Positions 53,855 to 59,357 of a stretch of DNA of 64,000 nucleotides are shown here, piece after piece. The stretch lies in assembly GCF_000813745.1 (NCBI RefSeq), contig NZ_JWLC01000001.1, positions 62,001 through 126,000 of the forward strand, read 5' to 3'. The notes below the pieces were generated by a model. It was not told the origin of the DNA, did no database searches, and saw only the letters and a list, made by a program, of their open reading frames with translations. The position numbers and the translations under genes are program-made. Every line of letters starts with the position of its first letter. Position 1 is the first letter of the stretch. Source of the stretch: Leisingera sp. ANG-M1. GTDB lineage: Bacteria > Pseudomonadota > Alphaproteobacteria > Rhodobacterales > Rhodobacteraceae.

Positions 53855-55801
53855 ATGGCCGAAATCTCTCTCACCTTTCCCGATGGCAATGCACGATCCT
53901 TTGACGCAGGCGTAACCCCTGCGCAGGTGGCCTCCAGCATTTCCACCTCGCTGGCCAAGAAGGCCATCTCCGCCACCGTCAACGATCAGCATTGGGACCT
54001 GCAGTGGCCGATCGATGCGGATGCCACTATCGCTATCCACACCATGAAGGACGAGGCTCAGGCAAATGAGCTGATCCGCCACGACCTGGCCCATGTCATG
54101 GCCCGTGCGGTGCAGGAAATCTGGCCCGACACCAAGGTCACCATCGGCCCGGTGATCGAAAACGGCTGGTACTACGACTTCGACCGCGCAGAGCCCTTCA
54201 CCCCCGAAGATCTCGGCACCATCGAGAAAAAGATGAAGGAAATCATCAACAAGCGTGATGAGGTCCGGACCGAAGTCTGGGAGCGCGGCCGCGCGATCCA
54301 GCATTACACCGACAATAATGAACCCTATAAGGTCGAACTGATCGAAAGCATCCCCGGCGATGAGCCGCTGCGGATGTACTGGCACGGCGACTGGCAGGAC
54401 CTTTGCCGCGGCCCGCACCTGCAGCACACCGGCCAGCTGCCGGGCGATGCCTTCAAGCTGATGTCCATTGCCGGCGCCTACTGGCGCGGCGACAGCGACC
54501 GCGCCATGCTGCAGCGCATCTACGGCGTTGCCTTCACCGGCAAAGAAAAGCTGAAGGCCCACCTGACCATGCTGGAGGAGGCCGCCAAGCGCGACCACCG
54601 CAAGCTGGGCAAGGAAATGAACCTCTACCACATGCAGGAAGAGGCGCCTGGCCAGGTGTTCTGGCATCCCAACGGCTGGAAGATTTACACCACCCTGCAG
54701 GACTACATGCGCCGCATGCAGGAGCGTGACGGCTATGTCGAAGTGAACACCCCGCAGGTCGTCGACCGCAAGCTGTGGGAGGCCTCGGGCCACTGGGACA
54801 AATACCAGGAGAACATGTTCATCGTCGAAGTGGACGAGGATCATGCCCGCGAAAAGGCAATCAACGCGCTGAAGCCGATGAACTGCCCCTGCCACGTGCA
54901 GGTGTTCAACCAGGGCCTCAAATCCTACCGCGACCTGCCGCTGCGCATGGCCGAATTCGGCTCCTGCGCCCGCTACGAGCCCTCGGGCGCGCTGCACGGC
55001 ATCATGCGGGTGCGCGGCTTTACCCAGGATGACGGCCATATCTTCTGCGCCGAGGATCAGATCGAATCCGAGACCGCAAAATTCATCGCCTTCCTGTCCA
55101 AGGTCTATGCCGACCTCGGCTTCCACAACTGGACCATCAAGCTCTCGACCCGCCCCGAAAAGCGTATCGGCAGCGACGAAAGCTGGGATCTGGTGGAAAA
55201 GGCGCTTGGCGATGCCTGCAAGGCGGCCGGCTATGACTATGAACTGCTTGAAGGCGAAGGCGCTTTCTACGGGCCAAAGCTCGAGTTCACCCTGACCGAC
55301 GCCATCGGCCGGACCTGGCAGTGCGGCACCCTGCAGGTTGACCCCAACCTGCCGGAACGGCTGGAGGCGAGCTTTATCGGCGCCGACGGCAACAAACACC
55401 GTCCGGTGATGCTGCATCGCGCCACCCTGGGTTCGTTTGAACGCTTCATCGGCATCCTGATCGAAGAGCACGCAGGCAAGCTGCCGTTCTGGCTGGCGCC
55501 GCGCCAGGTGGTGGTCGCCTCGATCACCTCGGACGCGGACGGCTATGTGCAGGAAGTCGTCGCCGAGCTGCAAAAGGCCGGCGTCCGCGCCGAGGCCGAC
55601 ATCCGCAACGAGAAGATCAACTACAAGGTCCGCGAGCACTCGGTGGGCAAGGTTCCGGTCATCCTCGCCGTCGGCCACCGCGAGGTAGAGGAGCGCACCG
55701 TCTCGGTCCGCCGCCTCGGCGAAAAGCAGACCAAGGTTGAGAGCCTGGAAAATGTTACAAAGGCGCTGGCCCTTGAAGCCACCCCGCCGGACCTTCTGTA
55801 A
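53855..55801 (+). CDS. thrS: Threonyl-tRNA synthetase
   Basis: 648 residues. TGS domain at the N-terminus, editing-domain zinc motif [15 protein letters not shown], class II motif 2 [14 protein letters not shown], motif 3-like [18 protein letters not shown], and a C-terminal anticodon-binding domain. Full length for a bacterial ThrRS. A strong terminator follows. Confidence 0.97.
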
Positions 55802-55823: not shown

Positions 55824-55852
55824 AAACGGCTCCCAATCGGGGGCCGTTTTTG
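55824..55852 (+). terminator. thrS terminator
   Basis: AAACGGCTCCC-AATC-GGGGGCCGTTT followed by TTGC, 23 bases after the stop. Confidence 0.8.
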
Positions 55853-55945
55853 CTTGCAGCGCCAGTAAAACACATAAAAACAACATCTTAACCCAAAGTT
55901 CTGCGCAACCCCTGCTGACGCAGCTGTGAGACACGGCCTCGTGAC

Positions 55946-55971
55946 TTAACCTCCTGAAAACCTCAGGTTAG
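55946..55971. promoter_or_regulatory. Inverted repeat in the bufferin operon promoter
   Basis: TTAACCT ... AGGTTAG arms, with a nested CCTGA ... TCAGG, lie 55-80 bases before the bufA ATG. A candidate operator or sigma-factor-linked element; no binding protein identified. Confidence 0.45.
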
Positions 55972-56023
55972 TGTTTCCATGTCATCACGACACCGCATGC
56001 TAAAACCGAAAGGACTTTACGAG

Positions 56024-56329
56024 ATGTCGAACACCGCAAAATCCCTGGCCGTTGCTGGTGCCGTTGCCGCCGCTCTGACCGCAGCATCCACCATCCCCGC
56101 CGCCGCCGCCACCAAAGAAAAGTGCTACGGCGTGTCGCTGGCTGGCCAGAACGACTGTGCTGCGGGCCCCGGCACCACCTGCGCGGGCACCTCGACCGTT
56201 GACTACCAGGGCAACGCCTGGACCCTGGTTGACGCAGGCACCTGCGAAGGCCTGGAACTGCCCGCACAGGCAGACGGTTCCGCACGCAACGGCTCGCTGG
56301 AGCCGCTGGAGCGTGACCTGCCGGCATAA
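56024..56329 (+). CDS. bufA: DUF2282 precursor peptide, bufferin-type RiPP
   Basis: 101 residues from the ATG at 56024, with AAAGGA upstream. A Sec signal ([21 protein letters not shown]) ends near residue 29. The mature part holds exactly four cysteines: Cys34 (EKCYG), Cys45 (QNDCA), Cys53 (TTCAG) and Cys74 (GTCEG), the conserved DUF2282 pattern. In known bufferins the two central cysteines become thiooxazoles that bind copper, the others form a disulfide. The product is exported to the periplasm. MNIO gene follows. Confidence 0.9.
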
Positions 56330-56345
56330 TTGCCGCTAAAATACC

Positions 56346-56375
56346 GGGGCGGGAGTGTGAATTCCCGCCCCTTTT
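56346..56375 (+). terminator. Hairpin with T-run between precursor and modification genes
   Basis: GGGGCGGGA-GTGTGAAT-TCCCGCCCC followed by TTTT, 16 bases after bufA and 24 before bufB. Would lower expression of the downstream enzymes relative to the precursor. Confidence 0.8.
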
Positions 56376-56398
56376 GCACCCTGACCACAGGACCTGCC

Positions 56399-57253
56399 AT
56401 GCTTGACGCCGCTGCACATGACAAACTGCCCGCCGCCCCCGGCGTTGGCTACAAGCCGCAGCATTTTGCCCAGATCACCGAGGATGCGGGCAGCGTCAAA
56501 TGGCTGGAAATCCACGCGGAAAACTACATGGGGGACGGCGGCCGCCCAATCGCGCAGCTGCGCCATCTTTCCGAAAATTTTGCCATGTCGGTGCATGGAG
56601 TCGGCCTCTCCATCGGCGGCGAAGGGCCGCTGGACGCAGACCACCTGGCCCGGCTCAAGCACCTGGTTTCCTGGCTGAACCCCGCCAGCTTCTCCGAGCA
56701 TCTGGCCTGGTCCACCCACGACAGCCATTTCTACAATGACCTGCTGCCGCTGCCCTATACGGATGCCAGCCTGCAGCGCATTTGCACCCATATCGACCAG
56801 CTGCAGGACACCATCGGACGCCGGATGCTGCTGGAGAACCCCTCCAGCTACCTCGCCTTTGCCGAGAGCACCTGGTCCGAGCCTGAGTTCCTGGCTGAAA
56901 TCTCCCGCCGCACCGGCTGCGGGCTGCTTTTGGACGTGAACAACGTCTTTGTCTCGGCCACTAATCTGGAGTTCTCGCCGCAGGGCTATATCGACGCCTT
57001 CCCGCTGGACAAGGTGGGGGAGATCCACCTCGGCGGCCATGACGAGGATGAAGACGACCACGGCCGCCCGCTGCTGATCGACAGCCACGGGCGCGAAGTG
57101 GTGGACCCGGTCTGGGCGCTCCTGGACTACACATTGGCCCAATCCGGCCCCAAGCCGGTGCTGATCGAATGGGACAACGACGTCCCTGATTGGCCGGTTC
57201 TGGAAGCTGAGGCCGCCCGCGCCGCAACCGCGCTGGAGCGCGTCCCGGCATGA
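56399..57253 (+). CDS. bufB: MNIO (DUF692) multinuclear iron oxidative enzyme
   Basis: 284 residues from the ATG at 56399 (AGGA 6 bases before). TIM-barrel DUF692 with the iron-ligand residues in WLEIHAENYMGDGG, MSVHGVGLSIGGEG, SEHLAWSTHDSHF, MLLENPSSYL, LLDVNNVFVSA and EIHLGGHDED. MNIO enzymes oxidise cysteines of precursor peptides; here the adjacent DUF2282 peptide is the natural substrate. Overlaps bufC by 4 bases. Confidence 0.93.
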   Translation: MLDAAAHDKLPAAPGVGYKPQHFAQITEDAGSVKWLEIHAENYMGDGGRPIAQLRHLSENFAMSVHGVGLSIGGEGPLDADHLARLKHLVSWLNPASFSEHLAWSTHDSHFYNDLLPLPYTDASLQRICTHIDQLQDTIGRRMLLENPSSYLAFAESTWSEPEFLAEISRRTGCGLLLDVNNVFVSATNLEFSPQGYIDAFPLDKVGEIHLGGHDEDEDDHGRPLLIDSHGREVVDPVWALLDYTLAQSGPKPVLIEWDNDVPDWPVLEAEAARAATALERVPA

Positions 57254-58017
57254 GCATCACCGCCACTGTCAGCCAGGCAGAGTTCACCCGCGCGATGATG
57301 GATGCGGGCCAGCCGGCGCCGGAGGGCCTGCAAGACCAAAACGCCCAGCCCGCAGGCCGCCGCTTCAGCGTCTACCGCAATAACGTCGCCGTCTCGCTCA
57401 CTGAAGCGATGCACAGCGCCTTCCCGGTAATTGCCAAACTCTTGGGCAAGCAGAACATGGACGGGCTGGCCGGCATCTACCTGCGCCAGCACCCGCCCTC
57501 CTCGCCCTTGATGATGTTCTACGGCGAGCATTTCCCGAAGTTCCTGGAAGGCATGGAGCAGCTCAAGCACCTGGGTTATCTCGGCGACACCGCCCGGCTG
57601 GAGCTCGCCTTGCGCCGCGCCTACCACGCCGCAGATGCCACTCCGATTGCCCCCGAGGCGCTTGGCGCCCTGACACCGGACGCACTGATGAACACGCGCC
57701 TGGCGCTGGCGCCTGCAGTAGAGGTGCTGCGCTCGCCCTGGCCGATCCACGGCCTCTGGCGCTACAACACTGAAGACGGCGCGCCCAAGCCTGAGCCCCA
57801 GGCACAGGACGTGCTGATCACCCGCCCCGAATTCGACCCCATTCCCCAGGTTCTGCCGCCCGCCGGCGCCGTCTGGATCCGCGCCCTGATGGGGGGCGCC
57901 ACCATCGGCGAGGCCTTGGAACAGGCCGCCGCCGAAGACGAGAGCTTCGACCTGGGTGCCACGCTGGCCCTGCTGTTGCAGGGCGGCGCAATAACTGCAT
58001 TGGACAGCAAAGGGTAA
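57250..58017 (+). CDS. bufC: DUF2063 partner protein of the MNIO enzyme
   Basis: 255 residues. The DUF2063 N-terminal domain is recognisable (GRRFSVYRNNVAVSLTEAMHSAFPVIAKLLGKQNM, IYLRQHPPSSPLMMFYGEHFP), and a C-terminal winged-helix-like domain follows. These proteins bind the precursor and deliver it to the MNIO. ATGA overlap with bufB enforces equal production. Confidence 0.92.
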   Translation: MSITATVSQAEFTRAMMDAGQPAPEGLQDQNAQPAGRRFSVYRNNVAVSLTEAMHSAFPVIAKLLGKQNMDGLAGIYLRQHPPSSPLMMFYGEHFPKFLEGMEQLKHLGYLGDTARLELALRRAYHAADATPIAPEALGALTPDALMNTRLALAPAVEVLRSPWPIHGLWRYNTEDGAPKPEPQAQDVLITRPEFDPIPQVLPPAGAVWIRALMGGATIGEALEQAAAEDESFDLGATLALLLQGGAITALDSKG

Positions 58018-58021
58018 GGCC

Positions 58022-58558
58022 ATGCACGCACTTGTCACCACGTACACTTCCCTCATCGGCAAGGCCGACCGGATGTCGGACTTCATCGTCCCCACCCTGG
58101 CACGGCTGGTGTTTGCCGCCGTCCTGCTGGTCTATTACTGGAACTCCGCCGGATTGAAGACTGACGGTTCGATCTTCTCGCCCTCGGCCGGCGCTTTCGG
58201 CCAGATCTTCCCCCACGCGGCTGAGGCGGTGCTCTATGACGTCACCCAGCTGAACATCTTCCAGCGCCTGGTCATCTTTGCCGGCACCGTCGCCGAATAC
58301 GTCCTGCCTGCGCTGATCCTTGTCGGCCTGATGACCCGCCTTGCCGCGCTTGGCACCATCGGCTTCATCTGGGTGCAGACCATCGTCGACGTCACCGGCC
58401 ACGGCGTGAAACTGGGCAGCCTGTTCAACAACGCCATCGAACTGGTCGACCAGCGCGTGATGTGGAGCTTCCTGCTGCTGGTTCTGGTCTTCAAAGGCGC
58501 CGGCGCCCTGTCGGTTGACGCCCTGGTCCGCAAGGTCGCAGCACCGGCCGAAGCCTGA
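58022..58558 (+). CDS. DoxX-family membrane protein of the bufferin operon
   Basis: 178 residues, four membrane segments (LARLVFAAVLLVYYWNSAG, VIFAGTVAEYVLPALILVGL, MTRLAALGTIGFIWVQTIVD, VMWSFLLLVLVFKGAGAL). DoxX proteins are often the fourth gene of DUF2282/MNIO operons (the Caulobacter gig layout) but their exact role is unknown. Only 4 bases after bufC. Confidence 0.88.
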   Translation: MHALVTTYTSLIGKADRMSDFIVPTLARLVFAAVLLVYYWNSAGLKTDGSIFSPSAGAFGQIFPHAAEAVLYDVTQLNIFQRLVIFAGTVAEYVLPALILVGLMTRLAALGTIGFIWVQTIVDVTGHGVKLGSLFNNAIELVDQRVMWSFLLLVLVFKGAGALSVDALVRKVAAPAEA

Positions 58559-58576
58559 TCTTTCCATTGCGAACGC

Positions 58577-58611
58577 AAAAGGCGCCCTGCCCCGGCAGCG
58601 GCGCCTTTTTC
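58577..58611 (+). terminator. Bufferin operon terminator
   Basis: AAAAGGCGCC ... GGCGCCTTTTT, with a CTGCCCCGGCAGC loop that can itself pair (CTGCC/GGCAG). Confidence 0.8.
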
Positions 58612-58628: not shown

Positions 58629-59000
58629 TCAGAAATGCGCCTTGGGCTCATCCGGCTTGCCGGCGGCCAGTGCCAGCAGCCCGGCCAGGGCAGCAAAGCT
58701 CAGCGGGAACACCGTGAAGACGTTGAAGCCAAAGCCAGCATACATCCCCGCGGCTGAACCCAGCAGCAGAATGCCGCCCCACAAGGCCCGCGCCCGTGCC
58801 ATCGCACCGCCGGCAATCGCCAGCAGAGGCGACAAAACCGCCAGCAGCCTCAGCTGGCCCACATTATCGACCTGTTCGGCCAGGCCTTCGACCTCGCCGA
58901 AATGTTCCACCGCTGCGGTGTAGCCATAGCCGAAGAACCCGACCACCATGCCGAAAATCCCGGCGATAATTCCCAGAACAAGCGCTGCATTGCGCATCAT
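58629..59000 (-). CDS. Small four-span membrane protein
   Basis: 123 residues with four hydrophobic stretches (AALVLGIIAGIFGMVVGFFGYGYTA, LRLLAVLSPLLAIAGGAMAR, WGGILLLGSAAGMYAGFG, FPLSFAALAGLLALAAG). A DUF4064-like arrangement, but not confirmed. It converges with the bufferin operon, so no functional link is implied. Confidence 0.75.
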   Translation of the reverse strand: MMRNAALVLGIIAGIFGMVVGFFGYGYTAAVEHFGEVEGLAEQVDNVGQLRLLAVLSPLLAIAGGAMARARALWGGILLLGSAAGMYAGFGFNVFTVFPLSFAALAGLLALAAGKPDEPKAHF

Positions 59001-59039: not shown

Positions 59040-59357
59040 CTACGAGACGCCAAGTGCCGCGCGCGTGTTCTGATCCCACCCCAGGAATAATTCCCCGTCC
59101 CGCTCGATCAGCGGCCGTTTCATCAGCGCCGGATGCGCCCGCAGCAGAGCCAGCGGCTCCCCGCCGCGCTCCTCTTCGCTGAGCCCCCGCCAAGTGGTTG
59201 AGCGCGTATTCAGCAGCTTGCTGCCAAATTGGGCATACGCCTGCTCCAGAAGCCCCTCGGGCATCCCATCCGTGCGGATATCGACCATAAGAGAACCTTC
59301 CATGCTTTTCAAAGCTTTACGGCAGGTGTCACAGTTCTTTAGCCCGTAGATTTTCAT
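59040..59357 (-). CDS. ArsC/Spx family (YffB-like) thioredoxin-fold protein
   Basis: 105 residues. KIYGLKNCDTCRKALKS has the CxxC of the Spx/YffB branch; ALLRAHPALMKRPLIERDGEL is the family C-terminal strand-loop. A true arsenate reductase is unlikely without other ars genes. Stands alone 39 bases downstream of the previous gene's start. Confidence 0.85.
   Translation of the reverse strand: MKIYGLKNCDTCRKALKSMEGSLMVDIRTDGMPEGLLEQAYAQFGSKLLNTRSTTWRGLSEEERGGEPLALLRAHPALMKRPLIERDGELFLGWDQNTRAALGVS

Follow-up and report, generated by a model that had tools for sequence, protein, structure and literature searches.

The bufferin-type gene cluster of Leisingera sp. ANG-M1 raises the question of whether an operon that has kept the gene content of its Caulobacter counterpart has also kept the way in which that counterpart is controlled. 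Here, the question is addressed in a window of 64,000 nucleotides, the whole stretch of DNA analyzed (contig NZ_JWLC01000001.1, positions 62,001-126,000), to which all coordinates refer. The operon is a known system, one further member of a large, recently defined class of copper peptides. The feature worth a second look is its promoter, which points to a regulator other than sigmaF-NrsF.

Identity of the Operon

Downstream of thrS (53855-55801), bufA, bufB, bufC, and a gene for a DoxX-like protein follow one another in that order on the plus strand, all four with intact reading frames (Table 1). The original prediction of a four-gene bufferin-type operon is borne out in gene order and strand, and the DUF2282, MNIO, and DUF2063 profiles are matched strongly above their Pfam cut-offs; of the four families it named, only DoxX is scored below the cut-off (18.7 versus 23.6 bits). 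The range it assigned, 55946-58611, contains the four genes and excludes the operator, which sits upstream. The terminator it placed at the end of the operon folds well, but the tight spacing it described fails between bufA and bufB, where a gap of 69 nt contains a strong hairpin. Profiles, gene order, synteny, and the fold of BufC all identify the locus as a Buf1 (DUF2282) bufferin operon, and this identity, together with the general function, can be accepted with high confidence.

Table 1. Features of the bufferin locus and its surroundings in window coordinates
Feature	Position	Strand	Remarks
thrS terminator	55824..55849	+	-18.8 kcal/mol, z -4.9, T run; separates thrS from the buf operon
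Operator dyad 1	55916..55929	+	TGACGCAGCTGTGA; 8/10 positions of TCACG-N4-CGTGA
Operator core	55926-55944	+	GTGANNCACNNNCNCGTGA; exact core match
Operator dyad 2	55931..55944	+	ACACGGCCTCGTGA; 9/10 positions
Candidate promoter	55945..55974	+	poor -35 CTTAAC (55945-55950), 18-nt spacer, -10 TAGTGT (55969-55974)
bufA	56024..56329	+	101-aa bufferin precursor, Sec-type signal, four Cys; PF10048, 8e-24
bufA-bufB terminator-like hairpin	56346..56371	+	-24.0 kcal/mol, z -4.25; then only four T (weak tail)
bufB	56399..57253	+	MNIO bufferin maturase, 284 aa; PF05114, NF050167
bufC	57250..58017	+	DUF2063 + RRE-like partner, 255 aa; 4-nt overlap with bufB
DoxX-like membrane protein	58022..58558	+	178 aa, short variant; PF07681, 18.7 bits, below cut-off 23.6
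Operon-end intrinsic terminator	58577..58609	+	-23.4 kcal/mol (MFE), z -4.3
Small membrane-like and ArsC/Spx-like genes	58629-59000 and 59040-59357	-	next to operon

The precursor matches DUF2282 (PF10048) at 83.8 bits against a Pfam cut-off of 22.4, as had been expected of the small peptide, and scores 19.4 bits with the NCBIfam BufA2 model, below its cut-off of 60. Translation likely starts at the ATG at 56024, which is preceded by AAAGGAC, and the features of a Sec signal are visible by eye in the translation. Numbered from this ATG, the cysteines are C34, C45, C53, and C74, exactly the four that had been claimed, and their spacing, C-x10-C-x7-C-x20-C, is identical in 108 of 111 sequences (the window and 110 loci); it is unread in L005, L030, and L091, where no correct start was picked or the locus opens within the gene. 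Tandem DUF2282 genes, two per genome, occur at L021 (G007) and L198 (G100).

The maturase assignment of BufB is drawn from the Pfam family MbnB_TglH_ChrH (MNIO, PF05114; 2.9e-102) and the NCBIfam equivalog NF050167 MNIO_BufB (373.6 bits, cut-off 310); the same protein falls under the NCBIfam cut-off for HvfB. Its solved relative is 3bww (E 3e-44). In an alignment of 84 rows, E37, H39, E41, H66, E100, H101, E146, D179, N182, H210, D228, H230, E257, and D259 are invariant and H214 is conserved at 98%, and the alignment retains the putative metal ligands. The Asp in the ERDF stretch of 3bww is the counterpart of D259, which probably also corresponds to D249 of FonB, the proposed catalytic base in the available text of PMC13097082.

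BufC matches DUF2063 (PF09836; 4e-23, 81.9 bits) and reaches 47.3 bits with the NCBIfam HvfC model, under its cut-off of 142. Sequence searches against solved structures returned no relatives of BufC, and fold comparison alone gave matches. A structure model built from an input alignment of 43 of 81 sequences has a pLDDT of 92.4 (one from the single sequence, pLDDT 45, was set aside), and its Foldseek matches in the PDB at E <= 0.001 are TglI (8hci and 8hi7) and NGO1945 (3dee), with TM-scores of 0.47-0.60. Both TglI and NGO1945 are MNIO partners according to the accessible part of PMC12452194.

DoxX (PF07681) is the usual, although not obligatory, fourth gene of Buf1 operons. The ANG-M1 protein scores 22.3 bits with the NCBIfam HvfX model, below the cut-off of 80. 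A longer variant at the same place in L034 (6612-7172), 52% identical to the short form, scores 31.1 bits with PF07681. Identity of the doxX DNA to that of the Leisingera loci L034, L035, L038, and L040 drops to 57-76% and is back to 84-87% in the 300 nt that follow, and strain ANG-Vp (L033) retains the ANG-M1 type (98%), so that doxX looks as if it had been swapped between Leisingera strains.

Distribution and Known Relatives

Far from being rare in the lineage, the operon is widespread and ordinary there, because DUF2282 is present in 85 of 120 family genomes (ANG-M1 included) and tblastn finds bufA, bufB, bufC, and doxX together in all 80 of the best-matching loci, which were picked by similarity as the 80 best among 570 confirmed MNIO relatives. 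The thrS gene accompanies them in 78/80 loci by the same method. Across the phylum, DUF2282 occurs in 63 of 299 genomes. ANG-M1 itself has one MNIO and one DUF2282 gene. Among the named matches listed the closest are Leisingera strains, with BufB 98% identical to that of Leisingera sp. ANG-Vp, and a plasmid collection yielded four matching records at a query coverage of at most 46%, the two best being large Tritonibacter mobilis replicons. Two further genes adjoin the operon: that for an ArsC/Spx-like protein has relatives in 75/80 of the best-matching loci (tblastn), and that for a small membrane-like protein with no Pfam match has them in 64/80 (tblastn).

Comparison with the Buf1 operon of Caulobacter vibrioides (CC3254-CC3257) had been proposed as a check, and it succeeds for the genes and fails for the promoter. 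As described in the available portions of PMC12452194 and PMC3511200, the Caulobacter operon shares the DUF2282 precursor, MNIO, DUF2063 partner, and DoxX in the same order and is transcribed from a sigmaF-dependent promoter, GTAACC-N16-CGAA, with sigmaF and its anti-sigma factor NrsF encoded beside it. The ANG-M1 operon, in contrast, lacks both NrsF and the sigmaF promoter and has a tandem dyad operator and an upstream thrS instead. The gig operon of Cupriavidus metallidurans, a bufferin cluster according to the accessible text of PMC12452194, has a like gene set, a likeness taken from that description. The Buf_EGKCG, oxazolin, and captophorin clusters, as far as the available text of PMC13097082 describes them, have in common with ANG-M1 an MNIO and a DUF2063-RRE partner, thiooxazole chemistry, and a Cys-rich precursor; the ANG-M1 precursor differs from theirs in belonging to DUF2282 and in having no EGKCG repeats, and the ANG-M1 BufB passes the BufB cut-off but stays below that for HvfB.

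A Tandem Operator Upstream of bufA

Across genera, the DNA 5' of bufA carries the pattern TNACG-N4-CGTGA-NN-CACG-N4-CGTGA, with dyad centers 15 bp apart, and in promoters of genomes without NrsF the dyads are far better conserved than their flanks (column counts over 47 family promoters). The stretch that follows in ANG-M1 is likely the promoter, a reading that goes beyond the moderate conservation of the -10 place, which is TANNNT-like (of the 47 promoters, 27 have the T, 32 the A, and 33 the final T). A CueR-type interpretation of the inverted repeat near 55949-55970 was set aside, as this stretch is poorly conserved.

A profile built from an alignment of 48 rows, the ANG-M1 bufA promoter among them, finds its best site in the ANG-M1 genome at this promoter (E 2.7e-7, for a training row); the second best, inside the rpsD coding region, is at chance level (E 0.18). 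A genome-wide operator regulon was considered and rejected, since 78 places match at two or fewer mismatches and the reversed control already gives 57. Of four such stretches whose surroundings were inspected, three lie in the coding regions of rpsD (contig C45), an ABC transporter ATPase (C5), and an ABC-transporter periplasmic binding protein (C23); another, on C24, lies by eye 5' of a GST-like gene and is an unproven candidate. The sole exact TCACG-N4-CGTGA of the genome (L236, 1501-1514) overlaps comF at its stop codon, and a glutaredoxin gene follows 82 nt further on.

Neighbors of the 47 operator loci, inspected by eye, include no regulator gene consistently linked to the operator; the commonest regulator-like neighbors are a LysR-type ORF (6/47) and an ArsR-type ORF (4/47). 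Among the literature matches listed, which cover the main text of freely accessible papers, none deals with bufferin regulation in roseobacters.

Possible Exchange of Regulatory Systems in the Family

Neither mark of Caulobacter-type control is present in ANG-M1: its genome contains no match to NrsF, and reading of the 200 nt before bufA reveals no sigmaF-type promoter. How general this is can be judged from a draw of family genomes in which 83 of 84 bufA promoters were read (L030 starts at a contig end; two loci with tandem precursors contributed one precursor each). The operator was scored at two or fewer mismatches and the sigmaF-type promoter as GTAA(C/T)-N17-CGA, and genomes were classed by NrsF anywhere in the genome, not by sigmaF itself. 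On this basis, the operator is found in 47 of 69 NrsF-less genomes versus 1 of 14 with NrsF, and the sigmaF-type promoter in 0/69 versus 9/14, whereas shuffled promoters give mean matches, out of 83, of 0.25 for the operator and 0.1 for the sigmaF pattern. Fisher values for the two contrasts (2.8e-5 and 6.1e-9) treat genera as independent and overstate significance because the genomes share descent.

The exceptions fall on both sides. Among the 22 of 69 NrsF-less promoters without the operator at two mismatches, the profile at E <= 0.1 matches eight (L007, L014, L018, L021, L190, L208, L216, and L219), some weakly, and none of the other 14; the same threshold, applied to all 36 family loci on which the profile had not been trained, gives 8/22 without NrsF and 0/14 with it. 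The sigmaF pattern is missing from 5 of the 14 NrsF promoters. NrsF lies on a different contig from bufA in two of the 14 genomes, G083 and G118, and the latter (L017), where the NrsF match is partial, is the only NrsF genome with the operator and has the sigmaF pattern too. Of the 29 loci in the phylum draw, 5 have unreadable promoters; among the rest, the sigmaF pattern is present in 12/18 and the operator in 0/18 promoters outside the family; inside it, the operator is present in 4/6 and the sigmaF pattern in 1/6.

Shared descent explains part of this contrast because NrsF genomes cluster on the BufB tree, where 13 of the 14 and one other row form one group, weakly supported (72/91). L011 (G010) stands among the operator type on this tree, although it carries NrsF together with a sigmaF promoter. 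An adjoining thrS ORF is found at 35/47 operator loci, 9/22 others, and 0/14 NrsF loci (loci of 3 to 9 kb).

A single dyad resembling TCACG-N4-CGTGA (8-10 of 10 positions), within 40 nt 5' of the -35, accompanies all nine family promoters that have both NrsF and the sigmaF pattern, a score of at least 8/10 being reached by 1% of shuffles. At sigmaF sites of the phylum draw, the dyad reaches 9/10 in 4 of 13, one of these four in the family, and 4 to 7 in the rest. Because a single dyad accompanies sigmaF promoters, it appears to have existed before sigmaF was lost, and it probably predates the regulatory switch. The same observation lends itself to a different account, in which the operon is as described but the motif just marks where a general regulator binds, or is left over from the ancestral sigmaF promoter region, with constitutive expression; the want of a consistently linked regulator gene also fits it. 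A remnant fits poorly with a dyad that is doubled and stands out so clearly from its surroundings in NrsF-less promoters, and a wide regulon of equivalent sites fits poorly with a double site that is solitary in the ANG-M1 genome, so that this account appears doubtful.

The hairpin between bufA and bufB bears on the output of the promoter. A hairpin at -12 kcal/mol or better is found at this place in 58 of 81 loci (the window and the 80 named) as compared with 9/81 in a control with one base shuffle per locus; the search was loose, and some of the best matches are long or unclean. The hairpin may attenuate transcription, and a partial stop after bufA would leave more BufA than enzyme.

On the promoter evidence, the regulation of the ANG-M1 bufferin looks rewired. 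It is reasonably probable, if far from assured, that in most of the family the bufferin operon left sigmaF-NrsF; that another dimeric regulator binds the tandem TNACG-N4-CGTGA, an operator grown from the single dyad; that G010 (L011) represents a swap in the reverse direction; and that a conserved partial terminator sets the ratio of precursor to enzyme.

Predicted Chemistry and Physiological Role

In the Caulobacter bufferin, the central pair of cysteines is converted to thiooxazoles, and a disulfide joins the outer pair (PMC12452194, in the legend of Fig. 3). By homology, modification of the central cysteines and copper binding may be expected of the Leisingera BufA. The precursor would be synthesized with its Sec signal, and BufB, aided by BufC, would oxidize C45 and C53 to 5-thiooxazoles, with a disulfide between C34 and C74; the modified peptide would then be exported and chelate surplus copper in the periplasm. 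A putative, linked stress function would fall to the DoxX-like membrane protein. Transcription would proceed from a sigma70-like promoter whose -35 is poor, controlled not by sigmaF-NrsF but by a dimeric regulator, presumed along with the sign of its action, that occupies the tandem dyads at 55916-55944, and the hairpin after bufA would pass part of the transcripts, to yield precursor in excess of enzyme.

How the maturation proteins recognize BufA has been considered elsewhere: preliminary evidence in the available text of PMC12452194 assigns the signal peptide to the recognition sequence. A C-terminal G-(S/Q)-L tail, kept in 20 of 24 precursors of the phylum draw (29 loci, L151-L179, 5 unread), was examined as a recognition site for BufC and set aside, its case being one of conservation and that source pointing to the signal peptide. 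The motif lies past the DUF2282 domain and in the Leisingera BufA is part of a 12-residue C-terminal stretch (56291-56326).

The peptide might also act on another metal, or in oxidative or sulfur stress, and not on copper. The Caulobacter buf genes under sigmaF respond to chromate and cadmium (PMC3511200, in the part available), DoxX and MerC are connected with other stresses in the discussion of PMC12452194 as far as accessible, and promoter control differs in ANG-M1; the DUF2282 domain and four-cysteine pattern are, in turn, those of the copper-chelating Buf1 family, and a role apart from copper is rather unlikely. An operon that is unmodified, non-functional, or decaying, for which the sub-threshold Pfam score of the DoxX-like protein might speak, is scarcely credible given four intact frames, the putative metal ligands retained in the BufB alignment, and genes present at every one of the best-matching loci.

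Implications for the Control of Copper Peptides

The trigger that has been worked out, in Caulobacter, is sigmaF-NrsF. The marine group to which Leisingera belongs seems mostly to be without it, and therefore a sensor other than sigmaF-NrsF probably times the production of the copper peptide there. The conserved double motif, the less ordinary part of the operon, seems to be a substitute for the switch known elsewhere, and the conserved element of 45 bp in which it lies offers a direct handle on the regulator of bufA.
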